Below are positions 2,543 through 57,039 of a stretch of DNA of 64,000 bases, in pieces. A program made the translations under genes and the position numbers. The notes under the pieces were generated by a model, which did no database searches, had not been told where the DNA came from, and saw nothing but the letters and a program-made list of their open reading frames with translations. The DNA is taken from assembly GCA_020444265.1 (NCBI GenBank), contig JAHLLH010000003.1:124001-188000 (forward strand), read 5' to 3'. The stretch comes from a bacterium (GTDB lineage: Bacteria; Electryoneota; Electryoneia; Electryoneales; Electryoneaceae). Numbering within the stretch: the stretch's first letter is position 1; each line of letters starts with the position of its first letter.

Positions 2543-3367
2543 ATGAAACGGTGGACGATCGGTAAGGTGATGTTGATCCTGCTGCTGACACTTGCGAGCA
2601 TCAGCTTCATCTATCCCTTCCTCTGGATGATGGGGGGTACGGTCAAGCCTGAAGCGGAAGTGATGAACTTCAGCCCGTTTGGGTCGACGTTCACCCTCGA
2701 CAGCTACAAGTCGATGATTGAGAAGATTCCGATCTTCCGCTCCCTCTTCAACAGCCTGCTCGTATCAGTGATTTCGACCGCCAGCGTATTGCTGCTTTGC
2801 TCGATGACTGGCTATGCGCTGGCTCGTCTGAAGTTCCGTGGGCGGAATACCATTTTTAACATCATTCTATTCACCATGGTGCTGCCTTTCCAGCTCACCC
2901 TTATTCCTCTGTACGTGCTGATGGTGAAAATGGGTTGGGTCGACAGTTATATGGCGTTGATCCTCCCCTATACGATGAGCCCCTTCGCGATCCTGCTCTT
3001 CCGTCAATACTTCATGGCGGTCCCGCAGGATCTGATCGATGCCGCCCGTCTGGATGGACTCAACGAATTCGGCATCCTCTTCCGCATCTTCTGGCCTCTG
3101 TCCAAGCCTGCGTTGATTACGGTTGGCATTATCCATTTCATGGGCATCTGGAACGAAGCGTTATGGCCGTTGATCGTCATCCGTCAGGAATCGATGATGC
3201 CGATGCCGCAGATGGTCACCCTCTTCGCGGTCGGTGGTCAGGCGGAATCCCAGGTGGGAACCCAACTCGCTGCCGCAGCGATCATGACCCTGCCGATTAT
3301 TGTGACCTACCTCTTCCTGCAGCGGCACTTTATCGCAAGCATGGCGACAAGCGGATTGAAGGGATAA
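2543..3367 (+). CDS. Sugar ABC transporter permease, MalG/UgpE type
   Basis: This 274-aa second permease partner has the EAA loop IDAARLDGLNEF and about six membrane segments. ATG 2543 (MKRWTIGKVM) is preferred to the upstream in-frame TTG at 2522 because GGGAGGTG lies just before it and because 2522 would overlap the previous gene by 20 bp. The next gene begins 5 bp after the stop, so the importer operon probably continues into the secreted protein at 3372. Confidence 0.9.
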   Translation: MKRWTIGKVMLILLLTLASISFIYPFLWMMGGTVKPEAEVMNFSPFGSTFTLDSYKSMIEKIPIFRSLFNSLLVSVISTASVLLLCSMTGYALARLKFRGRNTIFNIILFTMVLPFQLTLIPLYVLMVKMGWVDSYMALILPYTMSPFAILLFRQYFMAVPQDLIDAARLDGLNEFGILFRIFWPLSKPALITVGIIHFMGIWNEALWPLIVIRQESMMPMPQMVTLFAVGGQAESQVGTQLAAAAIMTLPIIVTYLFLQRHFIASMATSGLKG

Positions 3368-3371
3368 ACGC

Positions 3372-4793
3372 ATGAACGGACCTCGCATAAGACGTTTGCT
3401 GTTCTGGCCGATCCTGACCGGGGTCCTTCTACTGGGTCTCGCGGTCTCGTCCGCACAGGCGCAGGCAGTTAATCTCGACCACCTCCGTCACCTGGAACGT
3501 CCCATGGTGATCGAGGGACGGCAGGCGACGGCAGTCTGGATCTATTGCGAAGCGCCTGACTATCACCTCGTTGGTGACGATGACGAAGGTGTGGCCTGTG
3601 TGGATGATGTTGCACGGGCAGCGCGGGTTTATCTCGAGTTGTATCAACAGACGGGCGATGAAAAGCTTCTGGAGGATCTGGCCGGGCTCCTGAATTTCGT
3701 TCTCGCCCTGCAGGCGCCGGATGGCGAGTTCTGGAATTTTGTCTGGGAAGATGGATCGATCAACACAGAGCATCGCACCAGCCAGAAATCACTGGACTGG
3801 TGGGCCGCTCGTGGATTCCGTGCCCTTTCCCTCGCGATGGCGATTCTGCCTGAGGGGGACAATGCATTGTCACGAGATCTTCGCACTGCCACAGAACGGA
3901 CCGTCAATCGTCTGCTTGAGGTACATGGCGACAGCCTGAACACGACCCACATGGGCTATGACAAAGCTGCCGAGTGGATGCTCGGCCTGCTGGCTTGGCG
4001 TGAGGCGACAGGTAGCGACCGTGTGGACGGTCTACTTGGCGAGTACGGCAATTTTGTTGCATCTGGCTACTGGACCCCGAAAGAGAAAACTGACGGGATG
4101 TCCTATCCCCTTCACCGCAGTTGGCAGAACATCTGGCACTCGTGGGGCATGCTGCAGGTGGAAGCCCTGGCAAGAGCTGGAAAGGTGCTTGGACGCGACC
4201 AGTGGGTGCAACAGGCTGTGCGCGAAGGCAGCGGTTTCCAGCGCTGGCTGATTGCGGAAGGAATGTGGAATGAGTTTGAACTGGGCGAGTCCGACACTCT
4301 TTCCGCAAAGAAGTATTCAGTCATCGCCTACGGCGTTGGTTCGCTGGTCGCTTGCCAACTTGGCCTCTTTGAGGTTACCGGGGACACCCTCTTCTCAACG
4401 GGGGCCGCTCTGGCTGCCAAATGGTTTGAAGGGGATAATTCCGCTGATGCGGAGATGTATGACCCTGCAACAGGGCGTGGGTATGACGGCATTATTGGTC
4501 CTGGTGAGCGCAACCTGAATGCGGGTGCTGAATCGACGATCGAAGCGTTACTCGCGAAGGCCTATCTCGCAAGATACGCCTCTCTGGTTGCTCCACTCGA
4601 TCCGCTTAAACGGACTCAGGATGCAACAACAGGTACGGTACAATTCCAATCCAAAACAGAAACCATAACGCTCCGTGAAGTGGACGATTGCTGGACCATT
4701 GATACGGAGAAAACATCTGTAGAACAAGATGTTCAACAAGAGCTGAAACCAAACACCAAGGGTGGGGGGGAACCCCTGAATCGGCTTAGGTGA
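3372..4793 (+). CDS. Secreted alpha/alpha-barrel-like protein, possible carbohydrate-active enzyme
   Basis: This 473-aa protein has a signal peptide (hydrophobic core LLFWPILTGVLLLGLAV, probable cleavage after SAQA). The body is rich in helices with repeated Trp/Asp/Glu motifs such as DDDEGVACVDDVARAAR, WNFVWEDG, SLDWWAARGF and HRSWQNIWHSWGM, and late GYDGIIGPGERNLNAGAEST. This layout resembles (alpha/alpha)6 toroid glycosidases and related uncharacterised proteins. I do not recognise a named family. It is translationally close to the sugar importer (5-bp gap), so a periplasmic step in glycan breakdown is a reasonable inference. Confidence 0.6.
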   Translation: MNGPRIRRLLFWPILTGVLLLGLAVSSAQAQAVNLDHLRHLERPMVIEGRQATAVWIYCEAPDYHLVGDDDEGVACVDDVARAARVYLELYQQTGDEKLLEDLAGLLNFVLALQAPDGEFWNFVWEDGSINTEHRTSQKSLDWWAARGFRALSLAMAILPEGDNALSRDLRTATERTVNRLLEVHGDSLNTTHMGYDKAAEWMLGLLAWREATGSDRVDGLLGEYGNFVASGYWTPKEKTDGMSYPLHRSWQNIWHSWGMLQVEALARAGKVLGRDQWVQQAVREGSGFQRWLIAEGMWNEFELGESDTLSAKKYSVIAYGVGSLVACQLGLFEVTGDTLFSTGAALAAKWFEGDNSADAEMYDPATGRGYDGIIGPGERNLNAGAESTIEALLAKAYLARYASLVAPLDPLKRTQDATTGTVQFQSKTETITLREVDDCWTIDTEKTSVEQDVQQELKPNTKGGGEPLNRLR

Positions 4794-50271: not shown

Positions 50272-50814
50272 TCAACCCGCTAAAGGGGTGACAGGTGCAA
50301 AGTCGATCTCGGTTTCTGCGATGTTGCTGACAACATTTACATGGGTCGTTTGCACAACCACACTGATAATCTCAAGAATTTCGCCGTTCCCGAATCCAGC
50401 TCGACGGATTGCCTTTAAATCACCATCGGTGATGTCGCGAAACCTGAGCGACACCGCTCGGGCAAACGTCAGCATGGCATCGACCCGGCTTTCCGGCGAT
50501 TCTCCGCGACGGGCATCCAGAATGTCACGGTCGCTAAGGCCCGCTGCACGGCTGTAGGCGGCGAAGGATGCCAGGCAGTAGGGGCTTTCATTGAGCTCGC
50601 TGACGGTCAACGCGATCCTGTACCGCAGTTTTTCGTCCAGGCTGCTGCGGTTCATCGAATCACTCGCACCCAACAGCGATTCAAGTACGGCGGGCGAGTG
50701 GGCGAAGGTCTGCACCAGGTTGGTGACCATTCCCTCGTTCTCCTCGAACTGCCGAATGAGTTCCCGGGCGCGCTGGGATGTTTTCCCTGGATCAATCGTC
50801 GGAATGCGCGGCAT
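50272..50814 (-). CDS. Carboxymuconolactone decarboxylase/AhpD-like protein
   Basis: This 180-aa alpha-helical protein starts at ATG 50814 behind AGGAG. The CMD/AhpD core is RYRIALTVSELNESPYCLASFAAY followed by LSDRDILDARRG and FTD-like ITDGDLKAIRRAGFGNGEILEII. The active-site CxxCxxH of AhpD reads SPYCLASF, so only one Cys remains and the His is replaced. Peroxidase activity of the AhpD type is therefore uncertain. A sigma-54-like promoter lies 47 bp upstream and a sigma-54 activator gene is divergent, so the gene is probably induced by that activator. Confidence 0.8.
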   Translation of the reverse strand: MPRIPTIDPGKTSQRARELIRQFEENEGMVTNLVQTFAHSPAVLESLLGASDSMNRSSLDEKLRYRIALTVSELNESPYCLASFAAYSRAAGLSDRDILDARRGESPESRVDAMLTFARAVSLRFRDITDGDLKAIRRAGFGNGEILEIISVVVQTTHVNVVSNIAETEIDFAPVTPLAG

Positions 50815-50860
50815 CGGGTCTCCTGCTGGATCATTGGTTGACGGCAACACGCTCCAATAG

Positions 50861-50876
50861 GACAATCCGCGTGCCA
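50861..50876 (-). promoter_or_regulatory. Sigma-54-type (-24/-12) promoter of the CMD gene
   Basis: On the minus strand the sequence reads TGGCACG-CGGA-TTGTC. The -24 element is a perfect TGGCACG and the -12 element differs from TTGCA (GT in place of the invariant GC). Spacing between the G pairs is the required 10 bp. It would start transcription about 35 nt before the CMD start codon. Confidence 0.6.
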
Positions 50877-50952
50877 GTTTTCACCGTTCCCTGAAAAACC
50901 GCTCTGAAAAAGGAGATCGGGGGATAATGAATGTTTGGAGGACCGAACGATT

Positions 50953-50982
50953 TCTCGTAGATTACGAGATCTCGTAACGAGA
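50953..50982. promoter_or_regulatory. Palindrome array, probable activator-binding sites
   Basis: Four half-sites TCTCGT, ACGAGA, TCTCGT, ACGAGA lie at 50953, 50964, 50970 and 50977. The middle contains a perfect 16-bp palindrome TTACGAGATCTCGTAA (50962-50977). It stands about 100 bp upstream of the predicted sigma-54 transcription start, the normal place for enhancer sites, and 33 bp before the activator gene. Confidence 0.7.
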
Positions 50983-51014
50983 GCCGGAGAATGTCGTAGC
51001 TGGGGTAGACGAGG

Positions 51015-52616
51015 ATGCCTGACATGGAGACACTGCACTGGGAGAAGGGGGAACCCTATGTGGCCGAGTTCGAATCTCTGAAGGATGTTTTACTCGAATT
51101 GGCACGAGAACGCTCGCTCGATTCCCTCTTCCACAAGCTGATCGAGTCGAACATGGCACGGCCCCATGTGGCCCATTTCGGTATCTGGTTAGTCGATCAC
51201 CAACCTGACGGCACTCCCTTTCTCAAGCTGGAAGCCTCCGGTGGACGGACCGCCACGGGCTTGGCAGACTGGCGTCACAAGGATGGGGACTATCGTACCG
51301 TCCCCTTCGATGAGCCGATCATCGGCGCGGCTGCAGCGGAACGTCACGATGTCCACAGCTTTCTCGAGGATGGCTGGGATCGTCCCGACTGGGCGGAAAA
51401 GGAAGGTATTCTCGCGGTCGGATCGACACCGATCATTCACCAGGATGAATTACTCGGCGTGCTGGCCGCCTTCATCGACCGGCCGATCTACGAGCAGATT
51501 CGTACCGATGGTCAGACCTGGCGACGGATTTTCACCGACCAGCTTGCCTCGACGATTGTCAACGTGCGTGCCTTTGAGGAAATCGATCACCTGCGCAGTC
51601 AGCTCGAACTCGAAAACGAGTACCTGCGCGAAGAGGTGAAAATCGCCCGCAAGTTCGGGCAGATTGTCGGCAGCAGCCGTGCCCTGGCACGTGTCCTTGA
51701 CCAGGTCGAACTGGTCGCCCCGACCGAGGCCTCCGTGCTCATCCTCGGCGAATCCGGCACAGGCAAGGAGTTGATTGCACAGGCGATCCACGAGAACAGC
51801 ACTCGTCAGAAAAAACCGCTGATCCGTGTCAACTGTCCTTCGGTCCCGCGTGAACTGTTCGAAAGCGAGTTTTTTGGTCACATACGGGGTGCTTTCACCG
51901 GCGCGGTCAAGGACAGGGAGGGCCGTTTCCAGCTCGCCAATGGCGGCACCCTCTTTCTCGACGAGATCGCCGAAATCCCCTTCGAATTACAATCGAAGTT
52001 GTTGCGTGTGCTCCAAGAGGGGACCTTGGAACGGATCGGGGAGGACCGGACCCGGAAAGTCGATGTGCGGATCATCGCCGCGACGAATCGTGACCTTAAA
52101 AAGGAGGTGGAGGCGGGACGGTTCCGTGAGGACCTCTTCTTCCGCCTGAGTGTCTTCCCAATCGAAGTGCCCGCCCTGAAAGACCGTCTCGAGGACATCC
52201 CCGACCTGACCCGTCACTTCATCGCCGACACCAGCCGACGCCTTGGCCTGCCGCAACCGACCCTGAAGCAACGGCACATCCTCCAGCTCCAATCCTACTC
52301 CTGGCCGGGGAACGTTCGCGAGCTGCAAAACGTGATCGAGCGCGCCGTCATCCTCGCCCGTGGCGAGACCTTGACCTTCGACTTCCTGCCCGACATCGGC
52401 CTGCCGAAACGAGTCCCCGTCCAGCCGGTCGAGGTAGCGAGTGACGAGGTGGTGACAGAGGAGGAGTGGAACAACCGCCAACGCGACAACATCCGTCACG
52501 CCCTCGAACTATCCGATTGGAAAATCCAGGGCCGCGACGGCGCCGCCGAACTGCTGGGCATCAAACCGACAACCCTGCGGTCACGGATGAAGGCGCTGGG
52601 GATTGAGAAGGGGTAG
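51015..52616 (+). CDS. Sigma-54-dependent activator with N-terminal GAF domain (NorR-like layout)
   Basis: This 533-aa protein has a GAF-like sensor at residues ~15-190 ([23 protein letters not shown]-type), a linker coiled coil, an AAA+ domain with Walker A GESGTGKE (residues 245-252), GAFTGA loop (residues 292-297), Walker [10 protein letters not shown] and R-finger region, and a C-terminal Fis-type helix-turn-helix ([20 protein letters not shown]). It remodels sigma-54 polymerase at enhancer-controlled promoters. The signal is unknown. The start is ATG 51015, with ATG 51024 possible. It is divergent from the CMD gene with shared regulatory DNA. Confidence 0.93.
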
Positions 52617-52910
52617 GGTGGGATCAGAGGGTTACCACAGCTCTCCGTTCGAGATAATCGAGCTGTACTTAGGTATACAGAAGAACTTAGGTCAATTATA
52701 TTTAAGGGATTTTGTATTCTCTATAGTTTTGTGTTAATTCTAGCTTTCTAGAAACTGTCACAATTTCTCTTTCGAATGTGTGATCTCGGCGAATCGAAGG
52801 TAACACATCGATAATGATTATTTGGATCAGGATAGGGATATCACGTACATTGAGGCCTTAGGAAAAGAACGCTGAGATTGAAAGCATAGTATCACGATTC
52901 GGAGAGAGAA
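52617..52910. other. AT-rich upstream flank of the cassette
   Basis: These 294 bp have no gene. A 7-bp inverted repeat ACAGCTC/GAGCTGT (52637-52666) may terminate the activator gene. Base composition falls sharply after about 52660. I see no tRNA, att-like direct repeat or integrase. Confidence 0.4.
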
Positions 52911-54440
52911 ATGGAAAGTGAAAAGAAATTTTCGGCTCTTCAAGTAAAACAATGGCTACCCGAGTGGGATGATTTAAAATGGAATCCAGCGGAACACCGT
53001 GCAACTCCTCCTAGCCACTTCTATCAGTTTAGTATGCCTGCGAGTTTGCTAAAACGACTTAGCGGAATCTATCCAAGGACAACTGATCGAAAGAGGTCTG
53101 CAGAGGATCTTGGGATTCAACGGCGTCATGATCCGCGTAGATCTGAGGAAATAAGTAGATTTGTAAAATATGGGTATCCATGGTCTGACCTTAGTGACGC
53201 AAAAAGGAATTCAAAGGATTTTTTAGATTTAAGACAACCTGGGTGGTTACCTACCGCGATAGTAATAAATATTTTGACATCCGGGGATAAAAGGAAGGGG
53301 AAATCAATTGATCCTTCTGACACGCTTTCTGTTGTAGACGAGAATAATAGAATTGCGTCAGTAAGTCTTCCAGAGTCTTATAAAGGTCTTGAATGGGTGC
53401 CAAAAGAAATTGCTCCCATTGAGGTAATTGATGGGCAGCATAGATTATGGGCTTTCAATGGAGATGAGCTGGAGGGTGAATATGAATTACCTGTAATTGC
53501 ATTTGTTGGGCTTGATCTAAGTTGGCAAGCTTATCTCTTTTACACAATCAATATCAAGCCGAAGAAAATCAATGCTAGTCTCGCTTTTGATCTTTATCCT
53601 TTATTGAGAACAGAGGATTGGCTGAATAAAACTGAAGGTCATGTGATTTACAGAGAAACAAGAGCCCAAGAACTTGTTGATCTACTATGGTCTCATGAAA
53701 ATAGTCCATGGTACCACAGGATCAACATGCTTGGTGAACCAGGTTACAAAGGACTACATGTTTCACAATCAGCATGGGTTAGATCGCTAGTCGCTTCTTT
53801 TATTAAAAGCTGGGAGGGTCGAGGAGTTCAGATAGGTGGTCTATTCGGGTCGAAAGTGGGCGAGCATCATGCTGTATTGCCATGGGCAAGGGCAGATCAG
53901 GCTGCATTTCTAATTGTCTTAGGTCAACAGCTAGAAAACGCCATTTCATCATCAAGTGGATCATGGGCAGATGATTTAAGAAGTATCGATGCTGATGGTC
54001 AACTAGATTTACAGGAACGAGACTTGGCATTTGTAAGTCAGTATTGTTTACTAAATCAAGATCAAGGTATAAGATCGATTCTTCATATTTATAATGACTA
54101 TTTCTATTTAATGGCTGATAACCTTCATTTAGATGGTTGGGGAAGTGAAAACCCAACAGTAAATGATATAGAGCAGTTGTCATATAGCATAGAGACACTA
54201 AAGAATGACAAAAGAATACTTAATTTCATTTGTGAGCTTTCTGAGTCTCTTGCAACATTTGACTGGAGGTCAGCTAGTGTCCCTGGATTAGCGCAGGATG
54301 AACGGACATACAAGTCCGCTTACCGCGGGAGTGGTGGATACAGAATGTTGCGGGAGCATGTATTGAGTCATCTATCAAGATCGAGTAAAGGAAAAGTTTC
54401 TGATACAGCAAAACAGATAATTGAAATATTAGGGTACTGA
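52911..54440 (+). CDS. DGQHR-domain protein (DndB/ParB-like)
   Basis: This 509-aa cytoplasmic protein has the signature IEVIDGQHRLWAF at residues 170-182, then LPVIAFVGLDLSWQAYLFYTINIKPKKIN, as in DGQHR-domain proteins. That family includes DndB of the phosphorothioation systems and is related to the ParB/Srx fold. The N-terminal ~100 residues and the C-terminal half are not recognised. The start ATG 52911 has GGAGAGAG upstream. It is the first gene of a three-gene unit, with the next ATG two bases after its stop. The role in DNA modification, its regulation, or nucleotide hydrolysis is inferred. Confidence 0.8.
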   Translation: MESEKKFSALQVKQWLPEWDDLKWNPAEHRATPPSHFYQFSMPASLLKRLSGIYPRTTDRKRSAEDLGIQRRHDPRRSEEISRFVKYGYPWSDLSDAKRNSKDFLDLRQPGWLPTAIVINILTSGDKRKGKSIDPSDTLSVVDENNRIASVSLPESYKGLEWVPKEIAPIEVIDGQHRLWAFNGDELEGEYELPVIAFVGLDLSWQAYLFYTINIKPKKINASLAFDLYPLLRTEDWLNKTEGHVIYRETRAQELVDLLWSHENSPWYHRINMLGEPGYKGLHVSQSAWVRSLVASFIKSWEGRGVQIGGLFGSKVGEHHAVLPWARADQAAFLIVLGQQLENAISSSSGSWADDLRSIDADGQLDLQERDLAFVSQYCLLNQDQGIRSILHIYNDYFYLMADNLHLDGWGSENPTVNDIEQLSYSIETLKNDKRILNFICELSESLATFDWRSASVPGLAQDERTYKSAYRGSGGYRMLREHVLSHLSRSSKGKVSDTAKQIIEILGY

Positions 54441-54442
54441 AT

Positions 54443-55810
54443 ATGCCAACGAGTTATGGGAATCTGTCGCAGTTGGGTAAAACGGCAATTCAAAATGCTG
54501 ATATAGACAGGGTAGAACCTTCCGCCACGCGACTACAGAATAACTGGCAGAATGGGAGCTGGTTGTCCTCTGGAAATATTTACGCGAAGGATGTGGTAGC
54601 AAAAATTGAGAATGGAAACCGTAGATATAATACTGGGAACCGAAAAGCTGATAGGCAATGGCAATTGTCTGAATACGTCGCAGCTTCGACTGTCTTACAT
54701 TGTATGGATGGTTGGAGTTATTTAGGAAAAGCCATCTTATCTGATTTAAGGAATGATGCAGGAACTTCTAGTCATTTAGCTTACTATGCTGAACTTCGAG
54801 CAGTTATGTCATTATTGGCTTCAGTTGGTATTGGTGTTTTTAATAAGTGTCATGCATCTTTAATAGGTCATGAAAAATGTGAGCATTTTAATGATGGACC
54901 TACTCATCGTTTCGCTTGGCTTGCGTTTGAAGAATGGGTGAAGTCAAATCAAGCTAAACAAATTCTATTTGATGTGTTGACAGTAGGTGGGAAGCCGGCC
55001 TCAATTTGGTTATCCCATAGTGGGCTTAGCTATGGTTTTCTTGCGCATAGATGGTTAAACCATTGGGGGATAGATATAAAACGATTTAGTGAGGATCGTG
55101 ATGCTCGAAATGAGTTTAGTTATAGACCTAATACGATGAATAGGATAAGCATCGGAGACGCTATTAGTAGCATAGAATCTCTTTCAAATTATTGGGAGTC
55201 ATGCGAGCCGTTTGGAGCATATAGCTTTGAGATGATAGACAGGTCTTTACTTAGAACAGCTATTCGGCATGTGTTCAAGGATGCAAATGGTCGAACTTAT
55301 AAGCAGGCGAAGAATATTTACAGGAAATATATAGAAAGAATGCTTCATGCTGTCAGTCCGACTGGGATGACTGAGCAGAGATGGTTGAACTTCTTTAGTG
55401 CCGAAGAGACAAGTTTCTATATTTATGATTTAGCCGCAAAAAATGAGCATCATTCAGCTCCTGGGTACCCAAAACAGATTATTTCTAGGGCGTTACTTCT
55501 TTTAAGGATAGCAACTGGTTTGACACGAAATTTGTTGTCACGAGTTCCGTCTTACAATAGAACAGAGTTGGAGTTCTGGTGGGGTAAAATTGGAGAAGCA
55601 AGAGGATTATGGAGGCCCGCGGAACCTCCGGAGGATTTTATTGATTTGTGGCAAGATGTGCAAGAAGCTATGGATCAGCTCAATGAGTGGAAGGAGAACA
55701 CTTCTGAGAATAAATCCGTATGGGATCTTTGGTCCTCGCCGGATTGTGCTAGAAGTTTACATTGTCTAAGCGGTACTGAGAGAATTGCCCTTTGGGGGTT
55801 GGGATTGTGA
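54443..55810 (+). CDS. Uncharacterised protein between DGQHR and methyltransferase genes
   Basis: This 455-aa protein is not recognised. It is mostly helical with conspicuous blocks STVLHCMDGWSYLGKAIL, HLAYYAELRAVMSLLASVGIG, HRFAWLAFEEWV, LSYGFLAHRWLNHWGID and LLRIATGLTRNLL. There is no signal peptide, membrane helix, Walker motif or obvious nuclease motif (no PD-(D/E)xK or HNH seen). It is locked into the operon: 2 bp after the DGQHR gene, with its stop overlapping the methyltransferase start (GTGA). It could be the effector or a specificity factor of the system. That is inference from context. Confidence 0.75.
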   Translation: MPTSYGNLSQLGKTAIQNADIDRVEPSATRLQNNWQNGSWLSSGNIYAKDVVAKIENGNRRYNTGNRKADRQWQLSEYVAASTVLHCMDGWSYLGKAILSDLRNDAGTSSHLAYYAELRAVMSLLASVGIGVFNKCHASLIGHEKCEHFNDGPTHRFAWLAFEEWVKSNQAKQILFDVLTVGGKPASIWLSHSGLSYGFLAHRWLNHWGIDIKRFSEDRDARNEFSYRPNTMNRISIGDAISSIESLSNYWESCEPFGAYSFEMIDRSLLRTAIRHVFKDANGRTYKQAKNIYRKYIERMLHAVSPTGMTEQRWLNFFSAEETSFYIYDLAAKNEHHSAPGYPKQIISRALLLLRIATGLTRNLLSRVPSYNRTELEFWWGKIGEARGLWRPAEPPEDFIDLWQDVQEAMDQLNEWKENTSENKSVWDLWSSPDCARSLHCLSGTERIALWGLGL

Positions 55811-56940
55811 AGTATATGGGATCAAAGCGTGCAATGCTCATGAATGGTTTGGGCAGTGTATTACGCGAGGAGTCGAAGAATACAACTCGTTTTGTAGACC
55901 TGTTTTCTGGATCTGGATCGGTAGCTTGGTTTGCAGCTACAGACCTAAAAATGGAAGTTTTATCACTAGATTTACAGAAGTATTCTTGCATCCTAGCAAA
56001 ATCTGTTATTGAAAGAACAAAGGCATTTGATAGTACTGCCACATATGAGAAATGGGCAGAAAGGGCTAAAATATTTCGTGAAGGAATTGCCATATGGAAA
56101 GAGGCAAAAAAGTTAGATCAAAGTGATATTTCAATTGACAAATGGCAAGCGGAAGCACAGGCTATTTGTTTGGAAGAGTATGAAGGAAACATTGTGTCAA
56201 GAGCCTATGGCGGTTTCTACTTCAGTCCGACACAAGCAATCACTTTTGATTCCCTATTACATACTATGCCGACGAACACAGATCAAATGTCGGAATGTTT
56301 AGCAGCATTGATAATATCTGCTAGTCAATGTGCTGCAGCGCCAGGCCATACGGCCCAAGCCTTTAAGGCGAATAGTACTGCAGGTCCCTTTTTAAAAGAA
56401 GCTTGGCATAGAGAACCTCTTAATTACGTATGTAGAGGACTAAACAAACTATCGGCATTGTATGCTTACAAAAAAGGTAAAGCAAAAGTTGGTGATGCAA
56501 ATCTTTATTCAAAAGAATTGAATAAAAGTGATTTAGTATTTATTGATCCTCCGTATTCTGGTGTTCACTACAGTAGGTTTTACCATGTACTTGAAACAAT
56601 AGCAAAAAGAAAGCGAGTCGCTGTTGCCGGTATCGGAAGGTATCCACCACTTGATCAGAGACCAAGGTCCGAATACAGCATGAGAAGTACTTCGGAAGGG
56701 GCAATTAGAAATCTGTTGTCTAATATATCGAGCCGAGGTGCAAAAGTCGTCATGACTTACCCAATGGATAAAAGTAGTAATGGATTATCTGGTCAACTAG
56801 TTGAGGAAATCGCCTCAGAGCATTTTAGTGTCGAAAAGAAATTAGTTAAGTCCCGCTTTAGTACCATGGGTGGTAATAGTAAAAATCGAGATGCGCGATC
56901 AAACACGGATGAGTTAATTATAGTATTAAATAAGCGGTAA
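55807..56940 (+). CDS. D12-class DNA adenine-N6 methyltransferase
   Basis: This 377-aa protein starts at GTG 55807, overlapping the upstream stop. MKYMGSKRAM is the usual N-terminal substrate/SAM entry of Dam-like enzymes. Motif I is FVDLFSGSGSVAWF (residues 29-42), and the catalytic motif IV is DPPY in VFIDPPYSGVHYSRF (residues 247-250). A middle segment with YGGFYFSPTQAITFDSLL is typical of the subgroup. It would methylate adenine N6 at an unknown site. No cognate restriction enzyme is recognisable nearby. Confidence 0.9.
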   Translation: MKYMGSKRAMLMNGLGSVLREESKNTTRFVDLFSGSGSVAWFAATDLKMEVLSLDLQKYSCILAKSVIERTKAFDSTATYEKWAERAKIFREGIAIWKEAKKLDQSDISIDKWQAEAQAICLEEYEGNIVSRAYGGFYFSPTQAITFDSLLHTMPTNTDQMSECLAALIISASQCAAAPGHTAQAFKANSTAGPFLKEAWHREPLNYVCRGLNKLSALYAYKKGKAKVGDANLYSKELNKSDLVFIDPPYSGVHYSRFYHVLETIAKRKRVAVAGIGRYPPLDQRPRSEYSMRSTSEGAIRNLLSNISSRGAKVVMTYPMDKSSNGLSGQLVEEIASEHFSVEKKLVKSRFSTMGGNSKNRDARSNTDELIIVLNKR

Positions 56941-57039
56941 TTTTAGATAATATGGCTCATGCGAACTTCCAGCAGTAAAGCTATAGTGTTTAGTGTAGTA
57001 GAATATTGACTATTAGAACTAAGATTCGATGCTGTGAGG

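Follow-up and report, generated by a model that had tools for sequence, protein, structure and literature searches.

The window analysed here, a stretch of 64,000 nucleotides, contains a divergent gene pair: a sigma-54 activator gene on the plus strand (51015–52616) and a CMD gene on the minus strand (50272–50814). Between the two lie a sigma-54 promoter facing the CMD gene and an array of predicted operator dyads. The features of the locus are the following:

51015–52616, plus strand: sigma-54 activator gene, 533 aa (PF00158, 239.8 bits; AAA_lid_14; HTH_8)
51057–51578, plus strand: GAF sensor domain, about aa 15–188 (AlphaFold model, structure matches and motif count)
51663–52394, plus strand: AAA+ domain with lid, aa 217–460 (PF00158)
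51888–51905, plus strand: GAFTGA motif, aa 292–297 (sequence)
52491–52604, plus strand: Fis/FhlA-type HTH (HTH_8, 24.8 bits; operator covariation)
from 52563, plus strand: recognition helix K517-P-T-T-L-R-S-R, within the HTH
50272–50814, minus strand: CMD/peroxidase-related gene, 180 aa, proposed target (PF02627, 33.2 bits; TIGR01926, 57.1 bits)
50814, minus strand: ATG start codon of CMD (sequence)
50820–50824, minus strand: Shine-Dalgarno AGGAG of CMD (sequence)
50563–50586, minus strand: CMD active-site segment S77-P-Y-C80-L-A-S-F84 (alignment of 28 CMD proteins)
50861–50876, minus strand: sigma-54 promoter TGGCACG-N4-TTGTC toward CMD (top intergenic site; 0 of 200 shuffles as good)
50947–50958, no strand: predicted operator dyad 1, ACGATTTCTCGT, a perfect ACGA-N4-TCGT
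50964–50975, no strand: predicted operator dyad 2, ACGAGATCTCGT, a perfect ACGA-N4-TCGT 17 bp past dyad 1 and the core of the palindrome at 50962–50977
50977–50982, no strand: extra half-site ACGAGA (as TCGT-A-ACGA), also present in the Halodesulfovibrio loci L055 and L056
50986–50997, no strand: degenerate third dyad, GGAGAATGTCGT, 22 bp past dyad 2 at the third-dyad position of relatives

The activator and its CMD partner

The activator belongs to the bacterial enhancer-binding proteins, as judged by its PF00158 AAA+ domain with a GAFTGA motif. By sequence, the GAF domain scores 18.8 bits, which is under the Pfam cut-off; 58 of 60 relatives, however, match GAF. An AlphaFold model built from 42 relatives has a pLDDT of 88 and matches GAF structures with a best Z of 18.8 and an rmsd of 2.3 over 153 residues, which supports the assignment of the sensor as a GAF domain. 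The divergent GAF–AAA–HTH activator described in the first-pass annotation is present with all of its domains, the GAF domain being recognised via the relatives and the model. A genome search yielded a single sigma-54 gene (rpoN; PF04552, 174.7 bits, at G000:C9). The activator has 27 matches there, and sigma-54 control is therefore common in the source organism.

In 48 of 67 relatives, the motif C-x2-C-x5-C-x5-C is found within the GAF domain; all four of its cysteines are absent from the window activator. The stress- or ligand-sensing role proposed in the first-pass annotation is thus a candidate role for a copy that lacks this motif. This four-cysteine motif (loci L049–L128) is a candidate metal or redox site, and we know of no described role for it. 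The window activator falls into a sub-clade without the GAF cysteines, together with L017 (genome G005), Desulfovibrionaceae and Desulfobacteraceae (support 99–100). A CMD partner is found in this sub-clade in the window only: the nearest relatives of the activator (L017, L051, L055, L056 and L063) have partners other than CMD. L017 features a recognisable 18 + 21 array with another divergent gene, and a search of 39 genomes within the phylum found a related sensor domain only in G005, again with another partner gene. The loci L055 and L056 carry two dyads and a -24/-12 element directed away from the activator at about 3600–3730; no divergent gene is listed there, and a small RNA or small gene is a possible target.

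Directly behind the activator, at 52617–57000, lies a block of approximately 40% G+C amid 57–60%. It encodes a DndB-like protein slightly below the Pfam cut-off (52911–54440), an unknown protein of 455 aa (54443–55810) and a D12-class adenine methyltransferase (55792–56940), which is a type II MTase according to PADLOC. The block probably represents an insert for DNA modification or defence that was acquired recently.

The CMD protein belongs to the superfamily PF02627 (gathering score 23), and the domain covers most of its length, as in the AhpD/CMD peroxidase-related enzymes (PF02627, TIGR01926). It differs from these enzymes in its TIGR01926 score, which stays under the curated cut-off of 81.8, and in its active site. 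The usual motif in the 27 relatives is C-x-Y-C-x-x-A-H, with few exceptions, whereas the window protein has S-P-Y-C-L-A-S-F. It lacks the AhpD-type combination of CxxC and His and carries SxxC in place of CxxC and Phe in place of His—therefore, an AhpD-like CxxC peroxidase cycle is impossible in its usual form. Genes downstream of CMD in other genomes encode PNPOx, isochorismatase, alpha/beta hydrolase, DUF1348, MOSC, DsrE and zinc dehydrogenase proteins; these neighbours hint at chemical or oxidant defence. The CMD gene of the window stands alone. A rule linking the loss of the GAF cysteines to the loss of the CMD catalytic residues was considered and rejected because L097 has an intact CMD motif without the GAF cysteine motif.

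Cysteine-based sensing of reactive sulfur, oxidants or electrophiles, similar to that of FisR, would agree with the four-cysteine motif in the GAF domain of the relatives and with the composition of the CMD operons elsewhere. However, with all four cysteines missing from the window copy, the FisR-like form cannot apply here as such, and the function is guessed from gene neighbours. For the window, we regard such sensing as unlikely. The FisR of Acinetobacter baumannii is without the Cupriavidus cysteines and still responds to sulfide (PMC7315123).

Operator array and sigma-54 promoter

The array had been described as four TCTCGT/ACGAGA half-sites within 30 bp, and all four are found: TCTCGT at 50953–50958 and 50970–50975, and ACGAGA at 50964–50969 and 50977–50982, together located 78–107 bp upstream of the -24 GG. 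The half-sites are real, but the better unit is the 12-bp dyad ACGA-N4-TCGT. Because this dyad is the natural unit, the earlier description missed an outer half-site at 50947. Read as dyads, the array features two perfect copies at a distance of 17 bp, which places it among the ACGA arrays (dyads at 17–18 bp), and a third dyad of which only the TCGT half is retained, at 50994. The 16-bp palindrome TTACGAGATCTCGTAA at 50962–50977 has a single occurrence in the window and a single one in the whole 4.33-Mb genome; three-mismatch neighbours of it are no commoner than those of a reversed control. The 29-bp exact tandem array is likewise a single occurrence in this 94%-complete genome; near-matches to it genome-wide equal the reversed control in number, with no excess. 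This uniqueness lends computational support to the earlier proposal of a single target gene.

The promoter reads TGGCACG-CGGA-TTGTC on the minus strand from 50876 to 50861, as the first-pass annotation had it—with TGGCACG at 50876–50870 and TTGTC at 50865–50861, 47 bp ahead of the CMD start codon. By the usual numbering, the predicted transcription start lies near 50850. The scoring of promoters used a consensus set beforehand from general knowledge and took the best site per sequence, real and shuffled alike. In related pairs, the -24/-12 element facing CMD reaches a mean score of 6.96, compared with 5.44 (sd 0.54) for shuffles and 5.63 for the opposite direction. The element keeps its position and direction in these pairs, and the GG and G are invariant across all 24 scored family promoters. 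The -12 part of the window promoter, TTGTC, has a T where C is usual (C in 16 and T in 2 of the 24 aligned family promoters, the window included).

The pair could also be a family relic, decaying or repurposed, in which some parts are nonfunctional: half of the third dyad is lost, the -12 C has become T, the GAF cysteine motif is absent and the CMD protein has neither the first Cys of CxxC nor the His. Yet both reading frames are open, GAFTGA and the AAA+ motifs are intact, two dyads are perfect, and an entire sub-clade without GAF cysteines has kept its arrays—the last of which speaks for a change of input and not for decay. A relic is, on this evidence, quite unlikely.

Conservation and operator specificity

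A scan of species genomes yielded 80 activator relatives, mostly aligned nearly full length at 41–53% identity. At 27 relative loci, a related CMD protein is encoded on the opposite strand, mostly by the immediate divergent neighbour; these pairs occur in Nitrospinota, Myxococcota, Thermodesulfobacteriota, Acidobacteriota, Planctomycetota, Verrucomicrobiota, Nitrospirota and Zixiibacteriota. Among 25 sequences—24 intergenic regions and the window—17 contain a total of 29 exact ACGA-N4-TCGT dyads, where dinucleotide shuffles predict 0.23. The usual architecture in the relatives is three dyads with a spacing of 17–18 and then 20–23 bp. Several CMD pairs without an ACGA array have an ATGA-type array instead. 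The first-pass annotation had named the absence of the palindrome from orthologous divergent pairs as a refutation; the array is kept in most related CMD pairs, and the proposal passes this check. The site is, however, not private to the pair in the window: it also precedes the activators of a broad clade with other targets, among them the CynF-matching and NitA-matching loci of Pseudomonas.

In the Verrucomicrobia loci L052, L054, L057, L062, L064, L068 and L070, the activators adjoin RND-type efflux genes, and the upstream dyads are only single or weak. In the activator tree, L060 clusters firmly with Acidobacteriota; its record, a metagenome-assembled genome labelled Bordetella parapertussis, has probably been misassigned.

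The letter of the operator varies with the recognition helix. Regulators with the helix [HN]-P-[AG]-T have ATGA-N4-TCAT at the same spacing in 10 of 10 cases with a callable array, whereas ACGA arrays accompany a K/R/P-P-T-T helix and a few variants. The window activator, with K517-P-T-T, features the FhlA-type [KRP]-P-T-T helix of the ACGA-array clade, a grouping proposed here that takes in CynF, NitA and the GAF/CMD relatives. Exceptions are L071 and L095, which have K-P-T-T and are scored ATGA, both at the noise level of 16. T519 versus other residues, set against operator type, gives a Fisher p of 9.5e-6. This value and a further p-value of 1.8e-4 are optimistic, since the test followed the observation of the pattern and related sequences lack independence. 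Repeated change is the better argument: when the HTH is left out of the tree, at least five changes of helix type are seen, and as many of operator type. This covariation, although post hoc, supports a direct reading of the dyads by the activator.

The nearest described regulators include CynF, NitA and FhlA. CynF, the regulator of cynABDS in Pseudomonas, is approximately 55% identical in the AAA+ domain and HTH over aa 137–531 and has the helix K-P-T-T; CynF-matching loci carry an ACGA-N4-TCGT array at 17 + 23 and a divergent target with a sigma-54 element. It differs in its sensor, which looks PAS-like (the alignment begins at aa 137), and in its target, which is cyanate uptake and cyanase. 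In a cynF mutant of P. pseudoalcaligenes, the divergent cynABDS operon is not expressed, and a sigma-54 promoter has been reported before cynA, the main text naming no activator site (PMC6627978). NitA of the nit1C cluster for nitrile/cyanide assimilation is a Fis-family sigma-54 regulator with no site reported in the text searched (PMC11049912). It shares the HTH and the array type (18 + 23), with divergent nit genes and a TGGCACG element, and differs in sensor, target and a degenerate first dyad. FhlA was compared alongside NorR, both from E. coli, and has the closer HTH, matching in GAA-x-LG-x-K-x-TTL-x-SRMK-x-LGI, and is 46% identical over 397 aa; it differs by having two GAF domains. The upstream regions of E. 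coli hyc/hyp, hydN and fdhF contain no ACGA-N4-TCGT dyad within one mismatch.

The Pseudomonas loci feature triple dyad arrays at 3156–3207 (L125, L127 and L128), 3173–3225 (L110) and 670–722 (L126). The intergenic regions that hold them resemble cynF–cynA and nitA–nitB, and the papers' main text does not name these arrays as sites for an activator. The activators form one group next to an NMT1-like ABC gene, in a CynF-like arrangement, and another next to a nitrilase cluster, as is the case for NitA. L125, L127 and L128 were putatively assigned to CynF by the NMT1-like ABC neighbour, gene order and similarity. Just past the array, at 3212, these three loci have a second -24/-12-like site, TGGCACG-N4-TTGGA, directed toward the cynF-like gene, which makes sigma-54 autoregulation of that gene possible.

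NorR of E. coli, which controls norVW, shares with the window activator the GAF–AAA+–HTH order, a divergent target and enhancer dyads before a -24/-12 promoter; E. coli norR–norV has three such dyads. A NorR-like geometry with a non-NorR half-site had been noted before; the local sigma-54 circuit is supported, and the half-site does differ, NorR sites being GT-N7-AC at 21 + 24 bp. A nitric oxide switch in which non-haem iron in the GAF domain binds NO and the CMD protein serves nitrosative stress would account for the shared layout, and NorR is also the best NCBIfam model for the activator (374.6 bits). This score, however, is well below the NorR equivalog cut-off of 476; E. coli NorR is alignable only from aa 211, its HTH is unlike, and its non-haem iron ligands H111, C113 and D131 align with L136, V138 and F153. 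NorR membership was rejected because score, operator and iron ligands all disagree, and a nitric oxide switch at this locus is very improbable. R75 of NorR is confirmed in PMC2941729, which also reports that three sites are needed for ring assembly and ATPase activity; by analogy, this mechanism of ring assembly may extend to the window activator.

A probable one-component sigma-54 switch and its meaning

Computation shows which parts are present and conserved, that operator and helix covary, that the array is unique in the genome and that rpoN is there. These observations point to a one-component sigma-54 switch with a mode of action like those of NorR and CynF: we consider it probable, with good confidence, that the adjoining activator turns on the CMD gene via the dyad array. 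Dimers of the activator would bind the ACGA-N4-TCGT dyads at 50947–50997 by their FhlA-type HTH, and the AAA+ ring would assemble on the DNA at the array. The GAF domain would restrain the ATPase until a signal arrives and then release it, whereupon the activator would remodel sigma-54 RNA polymerase at the -24/-12 element (50876–50861) and start CMD transcription. Because it sits 18–68 bp before the activator start codon, the array probably also limits transcription of the activator itself, as NorR sites do. Binding, ring assembly, GAF repression, the direction of control and this autoregulation we infer. With only two complete dyads, the response may be lowered, or the extra half-site may take part.

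That the array serves autoregulation only, with CMD a mere neighbour, is very improbable: the array is closer to the activator start than to CMD and is found without a CMD neighbour in some relatives, but the sigma-54 element of CMD pairs points at CMD and away from the activator, the activator/CMD pairing recurs across phyla, and without functional CynF the divergent operon is not expressed (PMC6627978). Counted against activation of CMD through the array are the lost half of the third dyad, the -12 T instead of the usual C, the nearest activator relatives without a CMD partner and a covariation that was noticed before it was tested.

Beyond the window, we lean, by a modest measure, toward one operator code common to a phylum-spanning clade of one-component sigma-54 activators: ACGA-N4-TCGT at 17–18 + 20–23 bp, which would become ATGA-N4-TCAT when the helix [KRP]-P-T-T becomes [HN]-P-[AG]-T. 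Sensors (GAF with four cysteines, GAF without them or PAS-like) and targets would be interchangeable in this clade, and the window would be a variant in which sensor and CMD protein have both lost cysteines and which would, therefore, respond to another signal.

The dyad sequence as one string was not found in the main text of the open papers searched, nor was a description of a sigma-54 activator with a CMD target; the papers on the Desulfovibrio and Clostridiales regulons show no ACGA or TCGT strings in their main text. To our knowledge, binding sites or targets are known for few sigma-54 activators outside Pseudomonadota. If an operator can be read by a rule of two specificity residues, sequence alone would be enough to assign targets to many orphan activators. 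Such an operator would also fill in the activator site that is missing from the cyanate (CynF) and nitrile (NitA) systems, and it points to a widespread, unstudied GAF/CMD switch.
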